This document shows, one piece after another, positions 3,264 through 31,910 of a stretch of 33,833 nucleotides of DNA. The position numbers and the translations under genes are program-made. How positions within the stretch are numbered: position 1 is the first letter of the stretch; each line of letters starts with the position of its first letter. The notes below the pieces were generated by a model. The model was given only the letters and a program-made list of their open reading frames with translations, was not told the DNA's origin and ran no database searches. This stretch comes from Candidatus Muiribacteriota bacterium (GTDB taxonomy: Bacteria > Muiribacteriota > DAOVTB01), in contig DAOVTB010000022.1 of NCBI GenBank assembly GCA_030633305.1, positions 1 to 33,833 of the forward strand, in the 5' to 3' direction.

Positions 3264-5849
3264 TTAATCATGAAAGTATTTATTCAATACTCTGGAAGTC
3301 TTTTGTTTATTATGTTTCTTAAAGAAAGCGCTGCCAAACTCTACTATAAAATCTTCAAAACCCTTTTTTGAAAACCATTCTGTATATTCAGTAAAAAGCA
3401 GATCATCTCCAACACAAAGCACTCTCCCATTTCCAAAATCTTTCCATGATGAAATACAGATTCCATCTTTAACAAGTATAGGTTCTCCCCCATCAATATG
3501 TCCTGTATTCTTTAAAAATGGATGTTTTGAATTAAATTTTTCTTTTGAAAAATTCATTCCAAATTCTTTAGATAATCTATTCATATTTCTAGTTCCCTTA
3601 CCAGGACCACATATCAGAATCAGAGATTTTCCTGATTCCGCCACAAGGGATCTAATACAGGTAATTTCTTTTTTAGTATAGGGCTTTTTTGGCGAGATCA
3701 AAACTATTCCCAGAACGCCATTATAATCAACTTTATCAAGATGCTCGCCATGATTTAAATATCTTGGCAATCCTAGTCGACCCAATTCATAATAGAAATT
3801 GTCATAGGATTTTTTCCCCATTACATTAACGTGTTTATCAGAAAAAACTACTGGAACAGGTTTATGGAAAGAATCGAAAACAATACGTTCAGATGGAAGT
3901 CGAATCGGAATATCTCTTACCCTGTTGAATTTATTAACTGATGAAAAAACAGCGAGACCTGATAAAAATATTAGTATTGGAATTAAATAAACCGGCACTC
4001 TGCAACATAACAAACTGCATAAAAAAGCCAATGTTAAACAGATAATGACCATCCATAATATATGTTCACCAGAAGCTTCATATTTACCACTGAACCATCT
4101 GACAATACCCCTGATTAGTTCTCTTTTTCCAGGAGTATATAACATGTAATTATTAAAATCTGTTGAATCGCCAAACCCCAGAATCTTTCCTTTTCCAAAT
4201 TTTCTTGTTACCATTACTGGTTTTTCACCAAAAATATCTTTTCCATCTCTTATAAGGCTTGAAAAAAAGGAAGGATTCCAGTATTCCCATGTCTCAGAAA
4301 AAGAAGCAGGACTTGATTTGATTATTGTTTTTACAGAATTGTGAATGATGTTTATTGAACAGTTTGTCGCCCACATGAAATGTGTAACATCATAATTTAC
4401 TGGATGATATATCATTTCTTCAGGTTCAGAATAGAGCCATGCACCTTCAAGAGTAACTGTTGAATCATTTTCAAAAGTAAATCCAAATTTTTTAGAAAGT
4501 TTATTTATCATGGTATTCATAAAAAATATATTTGTATGTTCACCGATCAATACAAGGTTTCCTCCGCGTTTAACAAACATAATGGTCTCTTGGATTTCTT
4601 CAGAACTAAATGGTTTTGTAACACATTTTAAAATCAGAACATCTTTTAAACCCAGTTTTTTGATATACTTTGAGTATTCATTAGTCTCAACTGCATTAAT
4701 CTTTTTTTCCTGTGCAGCAAAAGCTCTTGCTTTTTCAAATTTTTCTCCAGGTACAATAAGTTTTACATCGCCATACTCTGAAAGCAATCTAACAAAATTT
4801 GAATAGTTATTTTCAGCTAGAGGTTCTTTAAGTCCAGGAAGAAAATCTATGTATGAGTTTTCCCAGTCAGAATGAAGTTCATTAATGTGAAATTCAATCT
4901 GGTTATACTCTTTCACTCCATAATAATTTTTATATGCCACTGTGATTAAAACAGTAAATATCAGTGCTAATATGAAAATCCTATGCCAGCGACTGCATTC
5001 AATCGGTTTAATGCTACAAGATGTATCAGCCTTTTTGAAATCATAACAGATAAGAAACACAGGTATAAATATCGCAAGATAGATAAAAGGTCTAAAAAGA
5101 TATAACGATTTCATTGGAAAGGAATAATCTCCCAAGGAAAGAAAAAAAGTATTTCCTGCTATTGTAATAAGATACACGGGTATACTGACAGTTATAAAAA
5201 GAAAAAGCCTTTTAATTTGGGCGTTAAAAATAAAATAAATCGAAAAACAGAACATGACATAGAAAAAAGGAAGTACCAGAAGTTTGATATAATCGACATA
5301 AAGACTGGTTTCATAAATATTTTTCCCATTTTGAAAAAAAAAGAATGGCTTTATATAATACAAGTTAAAAATCGGCTTAAATATTATTACAAGAAGCTTT
5401 GCAGTATAATCAACAAATAAACTGAATGAATATAACTCAGAAAAATAGCAGGTCCTTATTATAAGACCACATCCCCATATAAATAGAATATAAGCTATTA
5501 TCTTTTCAGAGCTAAAAAGATGAAAGATGAATATCAGACAGATAAAAATAAACATGGAACTGTTGATATGGGTTCCACTATAAAGATACATTGCTAGAAT
5601 CAGATAAAAACATTTGAGAAAAGAATATTTATTAACACTGAGCCTTGATCTATTAAATATAAAATACAGAAATACTGAGGAAAAAAAAATCCCCGAAAGC
5701 AGGTATAAAAAACCATACTTTCCAATAGTTCCAGTAAGAATTGAAGTATGATCCTTGTATTTATCGAAAAGGAGATCAACATATAGAAAGAAAGCAGAGA
5801 TATAGAGAATTATTCCAGTAAGAAAATACCGGATTTTCCCCAGAATCAT
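3264..5849 (-). CDS. Large membrane protein: about 8-9 N-terminal TM segments plus two DUF4350/GATase-like soluble domains
   Basis: 861 aa; hydrophobic N-terminal ~290 aa, then two segments of the type DVLILKC..PFSSEEIQETIMFVKRGGNLVLIGEH and LGIVLISPKKPYTKKEITCIRSLVAESGKSLILICG, separated by two further hydrophobic stretches. Overlaps the upstream GT2 gene by 4 nt. Confidence 0.6.
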   Translation of the reverse strand: MILGKIRYFLTGIILYISAFFLYVDLLFDKYKDHTSILTGTIGKYGFLYLLSGIFFSSVFLYFIFNRSRLSVNKYSFLKCFYLILAMYLYSGTHINSSMFIFICLIFIFHLFSSEKIIAYILFIWGCGLIIRTCYFSELYSFSLFVDYTAKLLVIIFKPIFNLYYIKPFFFFQNGKNIYETSLYVDYIKLLVLPFFYVMFCFSIYFIFNAQIKRLFLFITVSIPVYLITIAGNTFFLSLGDYSFPMKSLYLFRPFIYLAIFIPVFLICYDFKKADTSCSIKPIECSRWHRIFILALIFTVLITVAYKNYYGVKEYNQIEFHINELHSDWENSYIDFLPGLKEPLAENNYSNFVRLLSEYGDVKLIVPGEKFEKARAFAAQEKKINAVETNEYSKYIKKLGLKDVLILKCVTKPFSSEEIQETIMFVKRGGNLVLIGEHTNIFFMNTMINKLSKKFGFTFENDSTVTLEGAWLYSEPEEMIYHPVNYDVTHFMWATNCSINIIHNSVKTIIKSSPASFSETWEYWNPSFFSSLIRDGKDIFGEKPVMVTRKFGKGKILGFGDSTDFNNYMLYTPGKRELIRGIVRWFSGKYEASGEHILWMVIICLTLAFLCSLLCCRVPVYLIPILIFLSGLAVFSSVNKFNRVRDIPIRLPSERIVFDSFHKPVPVVFSDKHVNVMGKKSYDNFYYELGRLGLPRYLNHGEHLDKVDYNGVLGIVLISPKKPYTKKEITCIRSLVAESGKSLILICGPGKGTRNMNRLSKEFGMNFSKEKFNSKHPFLKNTGHIDGGEPILVKDGICISSWKDFGNGRVLCVGDDLLFTEYTEWFSKKGFEDFIVEFGSAFFKKHNKQKTSRVLNKYFHD

Positions 5850-6586
5850 TTTATTTTTTCATCTTTGATCTTATAATGAATATTTCGGTTTCGCATCCAG
5901 ATCGCAGCAAGCAGATCACAGAACGGACCAATTAATCTATTAAAAAGAAAATACTTGGGTTCTCCATATTTTCTCTCCCTATGATTTACATCAAGAGTTT
6001 TAAATGTATAACCTTTTAGTTTCAGCAAAAAAGGTAAAAATCTGTGCATTCCCTTAAAAAAAGGAAGAGATTTTACTGCCTTGCCTGTAAAGGCTTTCAA
6101 TGTACACCCTGTGTCCTTGACACCATCCTTAATCAGAAAATTTCTGATCGCATTAGCGCTCTTTGATGTCATTCGTTTTACGAATGTATCTTTTCTATTC
6201 GCCCTTATACCTATAACTGCATCAACGCCAGTATTAACAATAATATCAACCATTTCTGGAATATCAGCCGGATCATTCTGCAAATCAGAATCAATTGTAA
6301 TTACAATATCCCCTTGTGAATTCTGAATTCCAGCCCATAACGCTGATGACAGGCCACAATTGTACTCCAAATTTATAATCCTGAATTGAATATTTTCTAC
6401 AGATTTTATAGACTCAAGTAATAATTTTTCACTATCATCATTTGAACCATCGTTTACATATATGAATTCGGCATTACAATTATTAATTCTCTTTACTGCA
6501 TTACAGAGTTCTTCAGTTAAAATCGGAAGATTTTCTTCTTCATCATAAAATGGGATTATTACAGACAACATTATCTTATCTTTCAT
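5846..6586 (-). CDS. Family 2 glycosyltransferase (polyprenol-phosphate mannosyl/glucosyl transferase-like)
   Basis: 246 aa; LSVIIPFYDEEENLP, YVNDGSNDDSEK, IVITIDSDLQNDPADIPEM (DXD), KDTGCTLKAF. Confidence 0.9.
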   Translation of the reverse strand: MKDKIMLSVIIPFYDEEENLPILTEELCNAVKRINNCNAEFIYVNDGSNDDSEKLLLESIKSVENIQFRIINLEYNCGLSSALWAGIQNSQGDIVITIDSDLQNDPADIPEMVDIIVNTGVDAVIGIRANRKDTFVKRMTSKSANAIRNFLIKDGVKDTGCTLKAFTGKAVKSLPFFKGMHRFLPFLLKLKGYTFKTLDVNHRERKYGEPKYFLFNRLIGPFCDLLAAIWMRNRNIHYKIKDEKIK

Positions 6587-6616
6587 ATTTCACCTATATC
6601 CTGTGGAATCAGACAC

Positions 6617-7111
6617 TTAAAGCGAGGATTGTAATTTATGATACCACTCTAACTGGCCATCTACTTTTCTGGGATTTTCCTCATCATCCATTTCATACTT
6701 TTGTTCTTTTGACCAGTAATATATAATTTCAACGGTCTTTACCTTATTACCTTTGTCCTTTTGTGCCTGCTTGGAATTAAGCAATTCAACAGTAATATTT
6801 GTTTTCACCAAACCTCTGTTTTCTGCATCATTCATTTCTACAAAACTGACTTCATAATCAACAAAATTTAGAAATTCAGGTTTAACAGCAAACTTTTTTT
6901 CAATAAGCTTGGGTATATTTTTTCTATTTTTATCTTTTGGTGAATGATATGTTGCAGCTTTATCAAAATCTTTGAACTTTAGAGATTCAATAAACTGTAA
7001 CGTCCTATCTCTGATAACTTTTTTTTCAGGTGAAAGCATCCCTTCATCTAGAAAATAAAATACTCCAAACCCAATTAATACGACTAGCGTTAAATAAAAT
7101 ACTGTCTTCAT
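6617..7111 (-). CDS. Hypothetical protein with N-terminal signal anchor
   Basis: 164 aa; hydrophobic N-terminus MKTVFYLTLVVLIGFGVFYFL; no family recognised with certainty. Confidence 0.6.
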   Translation of the reverse strand: MKTVFYLTLVVLIGFGVFYFLDEGMLSPEKKVIRDRTLQFIESLKFKDFDKAATYHSPKDKNRKNIPKLIEKKFAVKPEFLNFVDYEVSFVEMNDAENRGLVKTNITVELLNSKQAQKDKGNKVKTVEIIYYWSKEQKYEMDDEENPRKVDGQLEWYHKLQSSL

Positions 7112-7141
7112 ATAATGACCTAATTAAGGTTATAATAACAC

Positions 7142-7179
7142 ACGGTCAGCATCCAGATAATCACTGAAATACTGACCGT
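7142..7179. repeat. Hairpin ACGGTCAG...CTGACCGT between a DUF350 gene and the downstream hypothetical gene
   Basis: Perfect 8-bp inverted repeat 7142-7149 / 7172-7179; no clear T-tract, so terminator function is uncertain. Confidence 0.4.
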
Positions 7180-7215
7180 TATATTATTTAACTTTAAAAA
7201 AATAAAATCTCTCGA

Positions 7216-7527
7216 TTATAGCTTTGGTACCTGTCCTGCCATAGCTTTTAAAAACTCAGCTGGAGCATTAACATTGATGCTGACTGTAATGCTTGATGGG
7301 AAAAGTGTCATTGCAACAACAAATCCAAAAGCAAGAATAACTGCAGCAAGGATAAGACCCATTGCAATATTTCCATTTCTGATTTGATTCCATTCATTAA
7401 CTGGAGTCATCCAATCAAAAAATTTAATCAAAAGACCTAATGAAAGACCCATTGCAACTGATGCAACGAGTGCCCATGCAACTGTAAAACCAAATTCGCG
7501 TAACTGACCGATTGTTTCAGGACTCAT
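7216..7527 (-). CDS. DUF350 family small membrane protein
   Basis: 103 aa; three TM segments with EWNQIRNGNIAMGLILAAVILAFGFVVA, characteristic of DUF350. Confidence 0.75.
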   Translation of the reverse strand: MSPETIGQLREFGFTVAWALVASVAMGLSLGLLIKFFDWMTPVNEWNQIRNGNIAMGLILAAVILAFGFVVAMTLFPSSITVSINVNAPAEFLKAMAGQVPKL

Positions 7528-24469: not shown

Positions 24470-26170
24470 CTAATCAGATCTTTCTTTTTGTTTTTCCAGA
24501 TAATCTCTCAATACTTCGCGGACAAATTTGGGAAGATTCAGGATTCTGCCAATGCGATTTGGTTCTTGCCACAGTCTATAAAGCCATTCAAAACCAAGAT
24601 TCTGCATAAATTCGGGAGCTCGATTCAAGGTTCCGCTTATCACATCATAGCTCCCACCAACTCCCATCGCACAATTGATTTTTAATTTGTCAAAATTATC
24701 ATCAAGCCATTTTTCCTGTCTCGGAACACCAAGAGCCACAAAAAGTATTCTTGCTCCTGAATTATTGATATCATCAATAATAGCGGATGAATCACTATCG
24801 GAAAAATACCCGTTATGAAAACCTGAAATATTCAATTCAGGGTATGTTTTGACTAATTTAGAACAAGTTTTCTCTAAAACTTCCTGCGTTGACCCTAGAA
24901 GATATATACCATTTCCCTTTTCTTCAGCTTTTTTGCATAGACTAAGCATGAAATCAATTCCAGGTACTCTTTCGTTCAATGGAGTATGAGAAAAATCCGC
25001 AGCCCAGATTAATCCAATCCCATCAGGAACATTTAATTTTGAACCATTAATAATCCTCATCAGATCAGGATCATTTCTGCATTCATAAACGATTATACTA
25101 TTTGGAGTCGTTATATAGAATTTCTCATCATTTTCAATTCCTTTACAAACTGAACTAACCGCCATATCCATCTTCACATTATCAATTCTTACACCCAGAA
25201 TCTGAATTGAATCACAAAAAACAGCTTTTTCTTTCTTTAAAAATATTGCTTTTCCAGTTGAAAAAAGCGTGATAATAGCCGTCAGGAAAAAAATAGTCAG
25301 TAAAAAAAAGGATTCTTCTTTATAAACAAAGTATACCATCAGATTCAGATACAATGTTGTAATAGTAATGTATATCACAAATGACTTTTCAGTAATATTC
25401 CATCTATAAGGATTCTTTAAGGCTAATTCCGAATTATAAAATTTCTTGTTATAACTGAATACAATAAGGAAAATTATAAATAAAACAGGCAGTATAAGCA
25501 TTAGGATCGGAATAATCAAACCAGTATAAATAATTGAGTAGTTCACTGAATAACATAAAAATATACCAAAAATATATCCCAGAAAAGTTGCATCTGACTT
25601 ACTAAGAGAAATTTTAGCCGGCGGAAAATTAAAATAAATAACTGAAAATAACGATCCAATAAAAAGATTCATAAGAACCAATATACTTTTTGAAAGAAAA
25701 CCTGTCTGAATATAAATAGAAAAAGAAAAGACAGAAACAATAAAGCAGATAACAGGAATAAGCCCATTATAGAAATTAACCATTCTGAATAGAAATATTG
25801 ATAGCATGATCCACATTGTTGTCAGAACTGTTTTAAAAATATCTACTTTCATGGTCATTATTCTGTTTTTGTCAAAAATAATCTCATTTAAACCAATTAA
25901 AACTGTGGAAAAAGTTAGCAAAGTAAGCAGAATAAAAAAAACCCGAGAAGTAATTAACCTCTCTTCTTCAAGAATTGCTAACAGAATATAAAACAATGAC
26001 ATTATAGAAATAGATTTGTAATTATCAGCATATCCAAGGGACCAGAAGGGAATAATAGTCGAAAATATAACTGCAAATTTTATAAAACTACGCTTCAAAA
26101 AATAGCAATAATTAAGTTGTAAAACAATTCCAGACACAACAATACTAAGAATAAGTAAATAATAATTCAT
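24470..26170 (-). CDS. WecG/TagA/CpsF (GT26) glycosyltransferase fused to an N-terminal WecA/MraY-like membrane domain
   Basis: 566 aa; C-terminus ILGVRIDNVKMDMAV, FYITTPNSIIVYECRNDPDLMRIINGSKLNVPDGIGLIWAA, ERVPGIDFM, FVALGVPRQEKW, GVGGSYDVISG; N-terminus contains NFPPAKISLSKSDATFLGYIFG. Confidence 0.85.
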   Translation of the reverse strand: MNYYLLILSIVVSGIVLQLNYCYFLKRSFIKFAVIFSTIIPFWSLGYADNYKSISIMSLFYILLAILEEERLITSRVFFILLTLLTFSTVLIGLNEIIFDKNRIMTMKVDIFKTVLTTMWIMLSIFLFRMVNFYNGLIPVICFIVSVFSFSIYIQTGFLSKSILVLMNLFIGSLFSVIYFNFPPAKISLSKSDATFLGYIFGIFLCYSVNYSIIYTGLIIPILMLILPVLFIIFLIVFSYNKKFYNSELALKNPYRWNITEKSFVIYITITTLYLNLMVYFVYKEESFFLLTIFFLTAIITLFSTGKAIFLKKEKAVFCDSIQILGVRIDNVKMDMAVSSVCKGIENDEKFYITTPNSIIVYECRNDPDLMRIINGSKLNVPDGIGLIWAADFSHTPLNERVPGIDFMLSLCKKAEEKGNGIYLLGSTQEVLEKTCSKLVKTYPELNISGFHNGYFSDSDSSAIIDDINNSGARILFVALGVPRQEKWLDDNFDKLKINCAMGVGGSYDVISGTLNRAPEFMQNLGFEWLYRLWQEPNRIGRILNLPKFVREVLRDYLEKQKERSD

Positions 26171-26171
26171 A

Positions 26172-27704
26172 TCATTTCATCTGTTTAAGGATTCTATCCA
26201 GTGAATCTTTTGAAACAAGTTTAACATTATTTTCTTCTGCAAGTTTTTTTGTACTATCTGAATATTCTCCACAAACAACCATAATTCCTTTTCTATAATC
26301 CATTTTATTCATATCTGCAATCATCTGTTTAACAGGGATCTCGCCAATTATACCTGTCCAGTTCCTTCCCATAAAAAGCGTCTGTACAGATTTCATATCC
26401 TTAACTATTATTGCATCAAATCCATCCTTGCTTTCTAGTAAGCTTTCTACTGAATATCCAATTTTATTAACGAAAGAGTCCATCGTATCCTTAAATTCTG
26501 CAATAGGAATCTGCGATAATTCAATATGATTATTTATTACTGTCTTACTTTTTTTTAATTTTCCTCCGTCAAGTCCAGAACCCTCTTCACCACGTAATGC
26601 TAACCAGTTTCTAAACTCATTATCCAGACGAGTCATATTTGATAAATGATTGGTCGCAAGTGAATCAGTTACTTTTCTATAAGTTTTAGTTCCGAAATGA
26701 TCATGCCAAAAGTCCATAATCAAAATATCGCCTTCTTTTGAATGTTTTCTTAACTGGAAAATTTCATAAATATCCATAAACTTAAAATTTATTTTAACCA
26801 ATTCTCGCCAATATTCTTCAGCCTTTACATCATTATTCATAAAATAAGATCCAACACCTAGGACAAAATATATATCACTAGACAACTCTACATTAAAACT
26901 CTTTATAAATGCCAGGTGTGATTCTACTTCCATTACCACTTTTTTCCAATTTTTATTGATAGAATACAAGTATGACAGCATAACACTTGAATTTGCACGT
27001 ACATACAATTCTTTACTCAATCCTTTTACAATCCTGAAATATTTAATTGCCTTGTTTGAATCTTTTTTCATGTAAATATATCCAAGCACTTCATAAGCGC
27101 TGGTATACTGAGAATCCACCTTGATTAATGCTTCAAGAATCTCAAGTCCCTCATCAAACCTATCACTTTCAATCAGAACCATTCCTTTATTGTATAAAGC
27201 TTCGGAATGAGCAGATTTGGTTTCAAGAACATTTGAAAGATAGATAAGCGATCGATCGAATAATTCATTTCCTATACAATAATCAGCAAGCTTAAGATTA
27301 ACTACTTCTATACTGCTATCCAGCGAATATATCTTAAGAAGTGTCATGTATTCACTGTCTTTCTTGAAAGCTCCTTCATAGATTTTAGCAAGCTCCATAT
27401 ATACCGTCAATTCATTTTCGAAAGGTTTATTATTAGTAATCTTTAGAATTAATTCCAGCTCTTTTTGAGCGGCATCAAGATATTTTTTTTTAAGCATGAT
27501 ATTAGCCAGCGATAATCTCGCTCCAATATTTTCGGGGTTTTGACTTAATTCTTCATTATAGAATTCTACAGCCTTATCTAAAAGACCTTCTCTTTCCATT
27601 TCTATGGCCTGAGCAAGAGCGCTGGGTCTGAAATAGTAAATTCCAGCCCAAACAAGGAACACAACAAATATTATCATGAATAATAGGGTCAGAATAATGT
27701 ACAT
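26172..27704 (-). CDS. Membrane-anchored TPR protein with C-terminal restriction-endonuclease-like (Mrr-type) domain
   Basis: 510 aa; N-terminal TM, TPR units (GLLDKAVEFYNEELSQNPENIGARLSLANIML); C-terminus KDGFDAIIV...GIMVVCGEYSDSTKKLAEENNVKLVSKDSLDRILKQ resembles the Mrr_cat fold. Confidence 0.75.
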   Translation of the reverse strand: MYIILTLLFMIIFVVFLVWAGIYYFRPSALAQAIEMEREGLLDKAVEFYNEELSQNPENIGARLSLANIMLKKKYLDAAQKELELILKITNNKPFENELTVYMELAKIYEGAFKKDSEYMTLLKIYSLDSSIEVVNLKLADYCIGNELFDRSLIYLSNVLETKSAHSEALYNKGMVLIESDRFDEGLEILEALIKVDSQYTSAYEVLGYIYMKKDSNKAIKYFRIVKGLSKELYVRANSSVMLSYLYSINKNWKKVVMEVESHLAFIKSFNVELSSDIYFVLGVGSYFMNNDVKAEEYWRELVKINFKFMDIYEIFQLRKHSKEGDILIMDFWHDHFGTKTYRKVTDSLATNHLSNMTRLDNEFRNWLALRGEEGSGLDGGKLKKSKTVINNHIELSQIPIAEFKDTMDSFVNKIGYSVESLLESKDGFDAIIVKDMKSVQTLFMGRNWTGIIGEIPVKQMIADMNKMDYRKGIMVVCGEYSDSTKKLAEENNVKLVSKDSLDRILKQMK

Positions 27705-27719
27705 TAAAACTACACAACC

Positions 27720-29021
27720 TTAGTTATCGGTTAGATATGAGCTGTATACCAGTAAGGCATTTACTACTTCCACGCCTTTTTTTAATTGAAGATCATATTC
27801 AGAAAACATGTACTCATTCTGATTTTTTTTAGAATCATCTTCTTTTTTTTCAAAATTTTTCTTAACCAGATAATCGTTTCTTCTTTTTATTATATCATCA
27901 ATTTTTTCCTTAGTCAGATCCACCATCTTAACTTCAATATCAGGTTTTATCCCAATTCCCTGAATACATATACCACTTGGAGTATAATATTTAGCTGTTG
28001 TTATAGCAAGAGCTGATTTATCTCTTAAAGGTATTACTGTTTGAACCACACCTTTTCCAAATGTCTTTGTACCAATCAAAATACCCCGCCTTGTATCCTT
28101 GATAGCTCCAGCTACAATTTCACTCGCACTCGCGCTACCGTTATTCACCAAAACCACCATATGATACTTTGGATGAGACTGATAGTAAGATACATATGGA
28201 AGTTCTTCGCCGTCTCTATCTTTGATTGTTACGATCCGAGAATTGGCTATAAATTTTTTCGCAACTTCCACTGCTGCAGTCAAAAGCCCACCAGGATTAT
28301 TTCTCAAATCAAGAATCAACCCTCCAATTTTCTTCTTATCATACTTTTTCAATGCAGTTTCCAAATCATCAGCTGTTGTTTCTATAAATTGACTAATACT
28401 TATATAACCGATATCTTTACTGATAAGAGCCGACCTTACACTTTGAAGCTTAATTACAGCTCTTTTAATGGTAAACTCATGAAGCTTTTTTGATCCTTTT
28501 CTATATATTTTCAGTTTAATCTCGCTGTCGACTGGACCACGAAGTACATTTACTGCTTCATTAACATCAACATCCTTAATCTCATTTCCGTCAACACTCA
28601 CAATAATATCACCAGGTTGAATACCTGCATTATAGGCTGGTGTTCCCTCAATCGGAGAAATTATCTTCAATCTGGATTTTTCACTGGTAATCATTATTCC
28701 AAGACCGCCAAATTTACCATCAGTTTCAGTTTTCATCTCATCATAAGCTTTAGGTGGCATATAACGAGTAAACGGGTCCTTCAATACTTTAAGCATCCCT
28801 TTAATTGCACCATCAAGAAGTTCACCTTCTTCGATGTTTTTTTCAACATATTTGGACTCAATTATATTCATTATTTTTTTTAAAGTTTCAAGTTTTTTAA
28901 GATACTTAACATTAAATGATGCCGCTTGTAATTTGTTTTCTGAAAAGAAAAGATTGAGAACTGTCAATATCATAAAAAATGATGACATTCCCAACAGGAA
29001 CCACTTTTGTGATTTCTTCAT
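27720..29021 (-). CDS. ctpA: Carboxy-terminal processing protease (S41), PDZ domain
   Basis: ORF track starts at 29057; ATG 29021 has GGAGG upstream. YMPPKAYDEMKTETDGKFGGLGIMI, PAYNAGIQPGDIIVSVDGNEI, GLILDLRNNPGGLLTAAVEVA, VLVNNGSASASEIVAGAIKDTRRGILIGTKTFGKG. Confidence 0.95.
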   Translation of the reverse strand: MKKSQKWFLLGMSSFFMILTVLNLFFSENKLQAASFNVKYLKKLETLKKIMNIIESKYVEKNIEEGELLDGAIKGMLKVLKDPFTRYMPPKAYDEMKTETDGKFGGLGIMITSEKSRLKIISPIEGTPAYNAGIQPGDIIVSVDGNEIKDVDVNEAVNVLRGPVDSEIKLKIYRKGSKKLHEFTIKRAVIKLQSVRSALISKDIGYISISQFIETTADDLETALKKYDKKKIGGLILDLRNNPGGLLTAAVEVAKKFIANSRIVTIKDRDGEELPYVSYYQSHPKYHMVVLVNNGSASASEIVAGAIKDTRRGILIGTKTFGKGVVQTVIPLRDKSALAITTAKYYTPSGICIQGIGIKPDIEVKMVDLTKEKIDDIIKRRNDYLVKKNFEKKEDDSKKNQNEYMFSEYDLQLKKGVEVVNALLVYSSYLTDN

Positions 29022-29064
29022 TATATAAACCTCCAACATTTCAAACAATGAATGCAACCTGGTG

Positions 29065-30246
29065 TTATAATAGCCATTTTAACGGATCCTTTGATTCAGA
29101 ATTCTGCCTAATTTCAAAATGAAATTTTTCATTTTTCACAGTTTTTCCAAGAATATCACTCTGTTTCACATACTCATTCATCCCTACTTCCTGCGATGCT
29201 AGATTTGCATAAACAGTTACAAGGGAATTACCGTGATCAACAATTACAATATTACCGTAGCCATTCATAAAGCCTTTGTAGATAACAATTCCATCAAGAG
29301 AACATTTTACATCAACACTTCCCTGAACGATAATATCAATCCCATTATTGTAATGTTGAATATCAAGAGCGCGGATACCACCAATCCCATACTTTGAAAC
29401 AACTTTATCTATACTTCCAACCGGCCATATCAAACGATGTTTAACTTTTTTATTAACTTTTCCGGTCTTGATTTTTTTAATCTTTGATTCTTTAATCTTT
29501 CGTTTTTCTTCTAAAATCTTTTTCCTTTTCTCTTCATCTCTGGAGAGATCTTCTTTAATTTTTTTCTTTAAACTTTTTTCTTCGCTACGCATCGCAAGTA
29601 TCTGTTCATTCAATTTTGTTTTCTTTCGAGTTGCTCTTTCAAAAAGTTTCTTCAGAGATTTTTCCTTTTCCAGCATTTTATTCTTTAAATCATTATTAAT
29701 CTGGATTAAAGACTCCAATTCCTTTTTTTTGCTGTAAATCTCATTTAATGTCTGCTTATAATAATTCCTGGCTTTTTTCAATGATAAAATAATTTTGTTA
29801 TCTTCCTTGATTATTTCAGAAAAATATTTATATCTTTTCAATAATTCATTCAAATCATCTGAAGCAAGTACTGAATCTACAAGTTTTCTAGTTTTTACCT
29901 TATAGATTGAAACCAATCTTAACGCTAAAATACTCTTACGTTTTTTAAGATCTTTTTCAGCCTTAACCAGTACTTCCTCGATTTTAACAAGTGCTTTTTG
30001 AGTATTATTTATTTTGAGTTCTTTCTGAGCAATTTTTCTTTCATAATTCTTGATTTCAAGCTGATTTTTCCCAATTTTAAAAAGCAGATTTCTGGCATCT
30101 TTTTCAGCAATTTTAAGTTTTACTTCAGCTTCTTTTCCTTTAACGGTAAGTTTTTGAAGGTCTTTTGTTGCAATATCATCTGACAATAAAGGATATTGCA
30201 AAATTAAAATTGAAAATATGGCGATAAAAAAACGGATTAGATTCAT
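29065..30246 (-). CDS. envC: EnvC-like murein hydrolase activator: coiled coil plus degenerate LytM/M23 domain
   Basis: 393 aa; signal peptide, long coiled coil, C-terminal LIWPVGSIDKVVSKYG...NNGIDIIV...GYGNIVIVDHGNSLVTVYANL...FHFEIR; adjacent to ftsX. Confidence 0.85.
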   Translation of the reverse strand: MNLIRFFIAIFSILILQYPLLSDDIATKDLQKLTVKGKEAEVKLKIAEKDARNLLFKIGKNQLEIKNYERKIAQKELKINNTQKALVKIEEVLVKAEKDLKKRKSILALRLVSIYKVKTRKLVDSVLASDDLNELLKRYKYFSEIIKEDNKIILSLKKARNYYKQTLNEIYSKKKELESLIQINNDLKNKMLEKEKSLKKLFERATRKKTKLNEQILAMRSEEKSLKKKIKEDLSRDEEKRKKILEEKRKIKESKIKKIKTGKVNKKVKHRLIWPVGSIDKVVSKYGIGGIRALDIQHYNNGIDIIVQGSVDVKCSLDGIVIYKGFMNGYGNIVIVDHGNSLVTVYANLASQEVGMNEYVKQSDILGKTVKNEKFHFEIRQNSESKDPLKWLL

Positions 30247-31151
30247 ATTTTTAAAAACTTTCTAATAGCCAGATATGAACTTATTGTACCAATAATCATA
30301 CCTAACGAAAATAATCTCACACTTAAAATCAGAAACGACTTGAGGGTAAAACTCATTTGTAAAAAAGGCAATACATAATTGAACTCTTTAATTCCATATT
30401 TGTAAACAAAATAAAGTACAACACACGAAAAGAAAGCACCAAAAAGACCCTGAAGAAACCCTTCAATTATAAAAGGCCACCTTATAAACCAGTTCGTTGC
30501 CCCAACAAGTTTCATAATCTCGATTTCTTCACTTCTAGCTACTACTGTTATCTTAATAGCATTAAATACAATTAGAAAAGCTGCTGCTACGAGTAACATA
30601 ATCATCATCAATGCAATTTCCCTAAGCATTTCAGACACTTTTTCAACCCTGTTTAATATTCCTGTAGCATAATCTATGTCCTGAATAAATTCATTACTCT
30701 TATAATACTCAATAAGACTTTTAATATTTTTCTCCAATTCACCGCTACCAGAAGTTTCTTTAAGTTTTACTTCAAGAGTCGGCGGAAGTGGATTTTCATC
30801 GATAAAGTCAAAGATTTGTTTATCCATGCCAAGATCATTTTGCAATTCTTTAAATGCCGTCTCTGGCGAAATATACAGGACAGAATCAACAGTATCCCTG
30901 TTTTTAAGACTTTCCACAATGTCTTCACGTAATTGATCAGTAATCTCGGGTTTCAGATAAAAATTAACTTTGATGTTACTTTTTAATTTTACTGAAAAAA
31001 TATGCAAATGTTTTTCAAAAATCAAAAAAAGTCCAACAAGAAATATTGTTATTGCAATAATCGTAATTGCAGCAACAGTCATAACACTGCCTTTTCTTAA
31101 ATTGGAAAAGGATTCCTTTATAAAATATCCAAAATTTCTAATGTTCTCCAT
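30243..31151 (-). CDS. ftsX: Cell division protein FtsX
   Basis: ORF track starts at 31193; M15 at 31151 (MENIRNFGYFIKESFSNLRKGSVMTVAAITI) is the typical FtsX N-terminus. EIEIMKLVGATNWFIRWPFIIEGFLQGLFGA. Confidence 0.93.
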   Translation of the reverse strand: MENIRNFGYFIKESFSNLRKGSVMTVAAITIIAITIFLVGLFLIFEKHLHIFSVKLKSNIKVNFYLKPEITDQLREDIVESLKNRDTVDSVLYISPETAFKELQNDLGMDKQIFDFIDENPLPPTLEVKLKETSGSGELEKNIKSLIEYYKSNEFIQDIDYATGILNRVEKVSEMLREIALMMIMLLVAAAFLIVFNAIKITVVARSEEIEIMKLVGATNWFIRWPFIIEGFLQGLFGAFFSCVVLYFVYKYGIKEFNYVLPFLQMSFTLKSFLILSVRLFSLGMIIGTISSYLAIRKFLKI

Positions 31152-31827
31152 AATCGTATGTTCCCCGGTTTTCATCTTTAGTAATTCTACCATCTACCAG
31201 TGCAATTACGCGTTTTCTCAAACGATTAACTATATTCTTATCATGTGTTGCCACTAAAACCGTGGTTCCATGATTATTTATTTCCATCAAAACCTTCATT
31301 ATCTCCCAGCTTATGTCCGGATCCAGATTTCCAGTTGGTTCATCAGTCAATAAAATCGCAGGATTATTCACCAGGGATCTTGCAATACAAACCCTTTGCT
31401 GCTCTCCGCCTGATAATTCCAGCGGAAACATATTTTTCTTATGTGCAAGCCCTACAAGATCGAGGGCACGAAGAACCTGTTTTTTAATAATACTACCAGA
31501 AAAACCCATTACTCTAAGGGCAAAAGCAACATTATCGAAAACCGAGCTGGTTTTCAACAACTTGAAATCCTGGAAAACAACACCGATATTTCTTCTGAGA
31601 TACGGAATCTTTGATGCATGAAGTTTTTCAATATTACGCCCGTCAATAATAACCTGACCCTCATTTGGTGAATCTTCCCTTAATATCATCCTGAGAAATG
31701 TTGTTTTTCCTGCTCCGGTCGGGCCTACTAAAAAAACAAATTCACTTTTTTTTATCTCAATATTTATGTTATCCAGTGCTTTTACTCCATTGGAATAAAT
31801 CTTGGTAACATGATGCATCTCTATCAT
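31138..31827 (-). CDS. ftsE: Cell division ATP-binding protein FtsE
   Basis: Walker A GPTGAGKTTFLR, LSGGEQQRVCIARSLVNNP, LLTDEPTGNLDPDISWEIM. ATG 31827 (MIEMHHVTKIY) has GGAGA upstream; the track start is 31851. Confidence 0.96.
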   Translation of the reverse strand: MIEMHHVTKIYSNGVKALDNINIEIKKSEFVFLVGPTGAGKTTFLRMILREDSPNEGQVIIDGRNIEKLHASKIPYLRRNIGVVFQDFKLLKTSSVFDNVAFALRVMGFSGSIIKKQVLRALDLVGLAHKKNMFPLELSGGEQQRVCIARSLVNNPAILLTDEPTGNLDPDISWEIMKVLMEINNHGTTVLVATHDKNIVNRLRKRVIALVDGRITKDENRGTYDYGEH

Positions 31828-31910
31828 AGTATTCTCCAGACAAAATTTCATAAAATTATATCATATTTTTCGCAAGATTAACAAGTATAATAAAATTATA
31901 TATTAACCCG

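Follow-up and report, generated by a model that had tools for sequence, protein, structure and literature searches.

What can a membrane domain built like WecA or MraY contribute to a glycosyltransferase when the acidic motifs of its family appear to have been replaced? The question is raised by a gene in the window, by which we mean the whole 33,833-nt stretch of DNA analysed here, from a genome of 4.64 Mb in 350 contigs that is 90% complete and groups with Candidatus Riflebacteria. We find that the gene probably encodes a second-step TagA/WecG (GT26) lipid-linked glycosyltransferase of the cell envelope that uses, as a membrane or lipid platform, a catalytically dead polytopic phosphoglycosyltransferase (PNPT, the family of WecA, MraY and DPAGT1), a relative of the enzyme that carries out the step before its own.

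Architecture and fold of the fusion protein

The peptides quoted in a preliminary description of this locus are all present in one ORF on the minus strand (Table 1). The span given there, 25361-26170, does correspond to residues 1-270, but the membrane domain actually reaches to about residue 316.

Table 1. Features of the fusion gene and its neighbours in the window
Feature	Position	Strand	Remarks
Pseudo-PNPT-GT26 fusion gene	24470..26170	-	Single uninterrupted ORF, 566 aa; three phyla have orthologues with this fusion
Degenerate PNPT (PF00953-like) membrane domain, residues 1-316	25223..26170	-	11 predicted helices
LEEER, residues 67-71	25958..25972	-	Site of the DD motif, with E aligned to each of the two lost Asp
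VNFYNGLIPV, residues 131-140	25751..25780	-	Site of NLIDGLDGL; Asn in place of both Asp
NFPPAKISLSKSDATFLG, residues 181-198	25577..25630	-	Site of NFxPAKIFxGDSGSxFLG; Lys for Asp
Loop of residues 241-262 (NKKFYNSELALKNPYRWNITEK)	25385..25450	-	Site of the HxHH loop; His gone, family-invariant Trp257 gained
GT26 (WecG/TagA/CpsF) domain and C-terminal appendage, residues 321-555	24506..25210	-	
Neighbour: N-terminal membrane segment, TPR repeats, Mrr_cat-like domain	26172..27704	-	1 bp separates its end from the start of the fusion
Neighbour: S41 C-terminal processing peptidase with PDZ	27720..29057	-	
Neighbours: M23/PcsB-like EnvC-type protein, FtsX, FtsE	29065..31851	-	

The PNPT family profile PF00953 (Glycos_transf_4) matched the fusion protein at 22.4 bits in the genome profile search (E 2.7e-4), under its 27-bit cut-off, and the N-terminal domain alone also fell below the cut-off of 27 (E 0.002); some Synergistota members of the fusion family score above it, at 40-41 bits. 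When 28 orthologous domains were combined into a profile, they matched a profile of the intact PNPTs encoded by the window's genome with a probability of 97.2 (E 3.9e-11) over 260 collinear columns, and larger profile sets comparing the domains of Riflebacteria, Atribacterota and Synergistota with intact WecA-type PNPTs reached 98.8 to 99.8% (hhalign). The unrelated multi-pass proteins RodA and MreD, included as negative controls, gave less than 1%. The N-terminal domain profiles did not match a single MraY sequence, which means either that the domain is related to the WecA/TagO branch or that the distance is too great for one sequence to bridge.

Structure prediction gave a similar picture. 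An AlphaFold2 model (pLDDT 74, pTM 0.73) searched against the PDB with Foldseek returned DPAGT1 and MraY as its top ten hits, each with a probability of 1.00, followed by an eleventh at 0.13; the E-values of the PNPT hits are modest (0.017-0.12, with TM 0.43-0.55), and the result was reproduced with the full-length model. The likeness of this domain to WecA/MraY exceeds chance. The WecA/MraY framework reported in the preliminary description is borne out by the family profile, by profile-profile comparison and by the modelled structure, and the claim survived comparison with PDB structures.

The model places 11 helices in the membrane domain. Lys and Arg make up a fraction of 0.19 in the predicted cytosolic loops, compared with 0.04 in the outside loops, and the positive charges fall in loops that are cytosolic in PNPTs. 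Together, the helix number and charge bias predict an N-out/C-in topology, with the GT26 domain facing the cytosol and its UDP-sugars.

PNPT catalytic residues are replaced throughout the fusion family

We scored ten conserved positions in a residue alignment that set 14 intact PNPTs against 74 fusions (28 from Riflebacteria, 19 from Atribacterota and 27 from Synergistota): the DD pair, K, the N and two D of NLIDGLDG, the Asp of GDSG, and HxHH, numbered after the intact PNPT L001. These residues have catalytic roles in the family. The window protein retains none of the ten, with the changes D93→E, D94→E, K103→F, N158→R, D161→N, D164→N, D226→K, H288→L, H290→L and H291→K. Each intact PNPT keeps 9-10 of the residues, compared with 0-3 in the fusions (Riflebacteria 0-3, median 1; Atribacterota 1-3, median 3; Synergistota 1-3, median 1), a pattern in which local misalignment might shift single counts but not the whole.

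The replacements differ by phylum. Riflebacteria carry GFLRDR, SLVYEMPF, SSG or SNSG, and W-x-x-x-RE at the motif sites; Atribacterota carry GRxDRK and NSIGQxDELGD, a deleted loop, and RQQL; and Synergistota carry xxLDExxG, GExL and YRRL. Single residues do persist in places: GDSG survives in one Riflebacteria fusion (L015), and the first Asp of NLIDG (D161) in 27/27 Synergistota and 17/19 Atribacterota. This Asp, together with other acidic residues near the motifs, such as the EE at the DD site of the window protein, would be what a true bifunctional enzyme with non-canonical catalytic residues in its PNPT part had to work with. We consider such an enzyme very unlikely, as nearly every member carries other residues in place of DD, N158, D164, the GDSG Asp and the His loop, with substitutions that vary from phylum to phylum, and most of the genomes already have an intact non-MraY PNPT.

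We also rejected the idea that some orthologues keep active motifs, since no fusion has more than three of the ten residues and none has the intact set. Replacement of the acidic motifs, noted at the outset for the window protein, is confirmed. Given the PNPT fold and the lack of any orthologue with an intact motif set, the term pseudo-PNPT is therefore well supported, though individual residues linger. Judged by these residues, phosphoglycosyltransferase activity appears to have been lost in the fusion.

The degenerate domain is under purifying selection

Between related genomes, the dN/dS of the degenerate domain is approximately 0.03-0.25, the same range as that of the GT26 domain, and two of its residues, P228 and W257, are invariant in Riflebacteria fusions. 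These low ratios and invariant positions indicate that the domain is functional rather than decaying. A decaying gene or assembly artefact, for which the fragmentation of the assembly into its many contigs might speak, has practically no probability: the frame is single and open, dN/dS is far below 1, and the same architecture recurs in well over 100 independent genomes from three phyla. We regard this reading as refuted by conservation.

The same measurements bear on whether the N-terminal domain is a generic membrane anchor only, its PNPT-specific function gone. The domain has diverged considerably (13-19% identity to the window's copy), with variable loops, as such an anchor might. Against this, one helix would be enough to anchor the protein, yet Riflebacteria keep the eleven-helix architecture, with P228 and W257 unchanged, under purifying selection equal to that on the catalytic domain. 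On balance, we think a mere anchor rather unlikely. The recurrence in three phyla and the selection suggest reuse of a worn-out enzyme as a membrane platform.

The GT26 domain retains the TagA active site

The C-terminal domain is readily assigned to GT26: PF03808 matches residues 378-543 at 207.8 bits (cut-off 27.4; E 1.2e-61), and TIGR00696 scores 176.3 bits, over its cut-off of 69. The TagA/TarA equivalog model NF041710 gives 184.1 bits, short of its curated 350-bit cut-off. Residues 321-555 align to TagA (7mpk) without gaps over 235 residues at an offset of 318 (phmmer, 1.4e-63), and the GT26 domain of the AlphaFold model superposes on TagA with TM 0.96 and an rmsd of 1.1-1.4.

Residues reported as conserved or catalytic in TagA are T37, N39, D65, R83, Q167, E168, R214, R221 and R224 (PMC6493773). 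All nine are identical in the window protein (T355, N357, D383, R401, Q485, E486, R532, R539 and R542, in the same order), and among 28 Riflebacteria fusions T355, D383, Q485, E486, R532 and R539 do not vary and R401 and R542 hardly do. The intact GT26 motifs described earlier are borne out by PF03808 and by the TagA alignment. With its active-site residues identical and mostly invariant, the GT26 part, including the appendage that completes the active site, is expected to be active.

Distribution and origin

Within Riflebacteria, the fusion occurs in 29/37 genomes of the phylum; a thirtieth (G007) has the gene cut by a contig end with the same two domains visible, and one genus has GT26 as separate genes only. 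Approximately 20/50 Atribacterota genomes carry the fusion, most others having separate GT26 and intact PNPT genes. In Synergistota, 178/188 genomes have a match, and the matches listed include well over 100 full-length fusions of approximately 550-620 aa; judged among these, most of the 188 genomes carry it. We found the fusion in 0/61 Thermotogota genomes, and the Bacillota matches are separate genes, sometimes beside an intact WecA.

A related-locus search with the single fusion protein as query returned nothing. In a GT26 tree, limited by long branches, a weakly supported branch (89/82) has the three phyla on one side, accompanied by one standalone GT26 from Kosmotogaceae that lies next to the window protein; constraining the fusions to one clade was marginally rejected (p-AU 0.042). 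In one Synergistaceae MAG (L097, 4315-6056), an ambiguous base and a frame change split the fusion at the domain junction. Because other Synergistota fusions are in one frame, this is probably an assembly error.

Genomic context and possible roles of the pseudo-PNPT

The synteny of the window (FtsE-FtsX-EnvC-CtpA-TPR/Mrr) is not common to other Riflebacteria, and so we read no function from the neighbours. The adjoining gene combines a membrane helix and TPR repeats with an Mrr-type restriction endonuclease-like domain (PF04471, 3.6e-11), which is odd for a cell-wall locus.

Elsewhere, the fusion lies in clusters whose members we presume, from sequence inspection, to belong to the following families. 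Atribacterota show the order intact PNPT, NDP-sugar epimerase (in most clusters examined), fusion, MreD, PBP2 and RodA, and one Riflebacteria genome (G001, L178) has an intact PNPT, a CapD/PglF-like enzyme and the fusion. In the Atribacterota cluster L156, the fusion spans 3556-5244 and the intact PNPT 6528-7448. That the fusion adjoins the cell-shape genes mreD, PBP2 and rodA in Atribacterota (L156-L163) suggests that synthesis of its glycan accompanies growth of the lateral wall.

Separate intact PNPTs are present in nearly every carrier genome sampled: 58/61 sampled Synergistota genomes give two or more PF00953 matches above the cut-off, and most Riflebacteria give two to four. The Synergistota PNPTs inspected comprise MraY and a second WecA-like enzyme of approximately 300 aa, with motifs largely intact. 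Two Riflebacteria genomes (G016 and G024, 91-93% complete) have the fusion but only one canonical PNPT, and both have monotopic PF02397 enzymes; in these, a different initiator, such as PF02397, may supply the acceptor lipid. These two genomes weaken the proposition that every carrier depends on an intact WecA.

In the platform model, the undecaprenyl-PP-sugar would come from an intact WecA-type PNPT that is a separate protein, or from some other initiating enzyme. The pseudo-PNPT, which probably retains the polyprenyl-binding groove and/or the dimer surface of the fold, would serve as a permanent tether of the cytosolic GT26 domain to the inner leaflet, where this domain would add the next sugar to the Und-PP-sugar presented there. 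We infer the platform role, the pairing with an active PNPT, and the identities of acceptor and donor. A membrane-platform or lipid-carrier-binding role, suggested when the gene was first described, is made more plausible by the purifying selection, by the topology and by co-occurrence with intact PNPTs in genomes and operons. Several points count against it. TagA, as a standalone protein, associates with the membrane by means of its C-terminal appendage (PMC6493773), and because the fusion keeps a TagA-type appendage, a separate anchor is not strictly needed; the G016 and G024 genomes, the lack of a sugar-biosynthesis gene beside the fusion in the window, and the surviving NLIDG Asp also argue against a platform.

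A more specific form of the platform explanation is dedicated docking, in which the pseudo-PNPT pairs with an intact WecA-type PNPT and channels fresh Und-PP-sugar to the fused GT26 domain. PNPTs pair with themselves, as seen in the dimers of MraY and DPAGT1 structures. Docking would account for the intact PNPT close upstream in the same cluster in Atribacterota and G001, for the near-universal co-occurrence in Synergistota, and for purifying selection on the entire PNPT fold rather than on merely one or two helices. Pairings of first- and second-step enzymes are also reported for MurG-MraY and Alg13/14-Alg7 (PMC8993221), which resemble the fusion in bringing a second-step glycosyltransferase together with a PNPT at the membrane, although their PNPT is active and separate whereas that of the fusion is dead. 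However, helices 1 and 2 of the fold are missing from the Atribacterota fusions, and no intact PNPT was seen beside the fusion in the window or in Synergistota. We hold docking to be a tentative reading, and are similarly doubtful that the dead PNPT is an obligate docking subunit of a live one, with initiation and first extension in one complex across three phyla.

Relation to known systems

The fusion shares its GT26 fold, the T37/D65/R221 set and the appendage with TagA/TarA and WecG (GT26, PF03808), including TagA of Thermoanaerobacter italicus (5wb4, 7mpk), but TagA itself is a 240-aa peripheral membrane protein, whereas here GT26 is covalently joined to an 11-helix domain. With WecA/TagO/MraY/DPAGT1 (PF00953) it shares the fold, helix number, order of motif loops and some framework peptides (NFPPAK, LGY), and differs in the tested residues, all 10 replaced in the window protein and 0-3 kept elsewhere. 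Paenibacillaceae and a Bacilli MAG (L062, L065, L086, L102, L057) place tagA beside a WecA/TagO gene; these are the same two families but, unlike the fusion, two proteins, with PNPT motifs intact.

In open-licence papers, a body of literature that is no proof of absence, we found no description of a pseudo-PNPT or of a WecA-TagA fusion, nor an account of widespread PNPT-superfamily pseudoenzymes; among the matches listed, this one occurs in most of the phylum Synergistota. The fusion is a sign that three phyla have a conserved, uncharacterised pathway for a lipid-linked glycan, and it offers a direct test case for physical coupling between the first two membrane steps of envelope glycan synthesis. 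For annotation it serves as a warning, as genes easily labelled plain WecG/TagA hide a second, repurposed domain.

GT26 is joined to other partners as well. Two Riflebacteria ORFs of 461-464 aa (G027:C52:21285-22286 and G025:C152:47098-48318) encode a monotopic phosphoglycosyltransferase (PF02397) followed by GT26 and, in contrast to the pseudo-PNPT fusion, are likely bifunctional initiator-extenders. In Candidatus Aquicultor, a 588-aa ORF (L091, 6933-8696) combines a polysaccharide pyruvyl transferase, CsaB-like by eye, with GT26.
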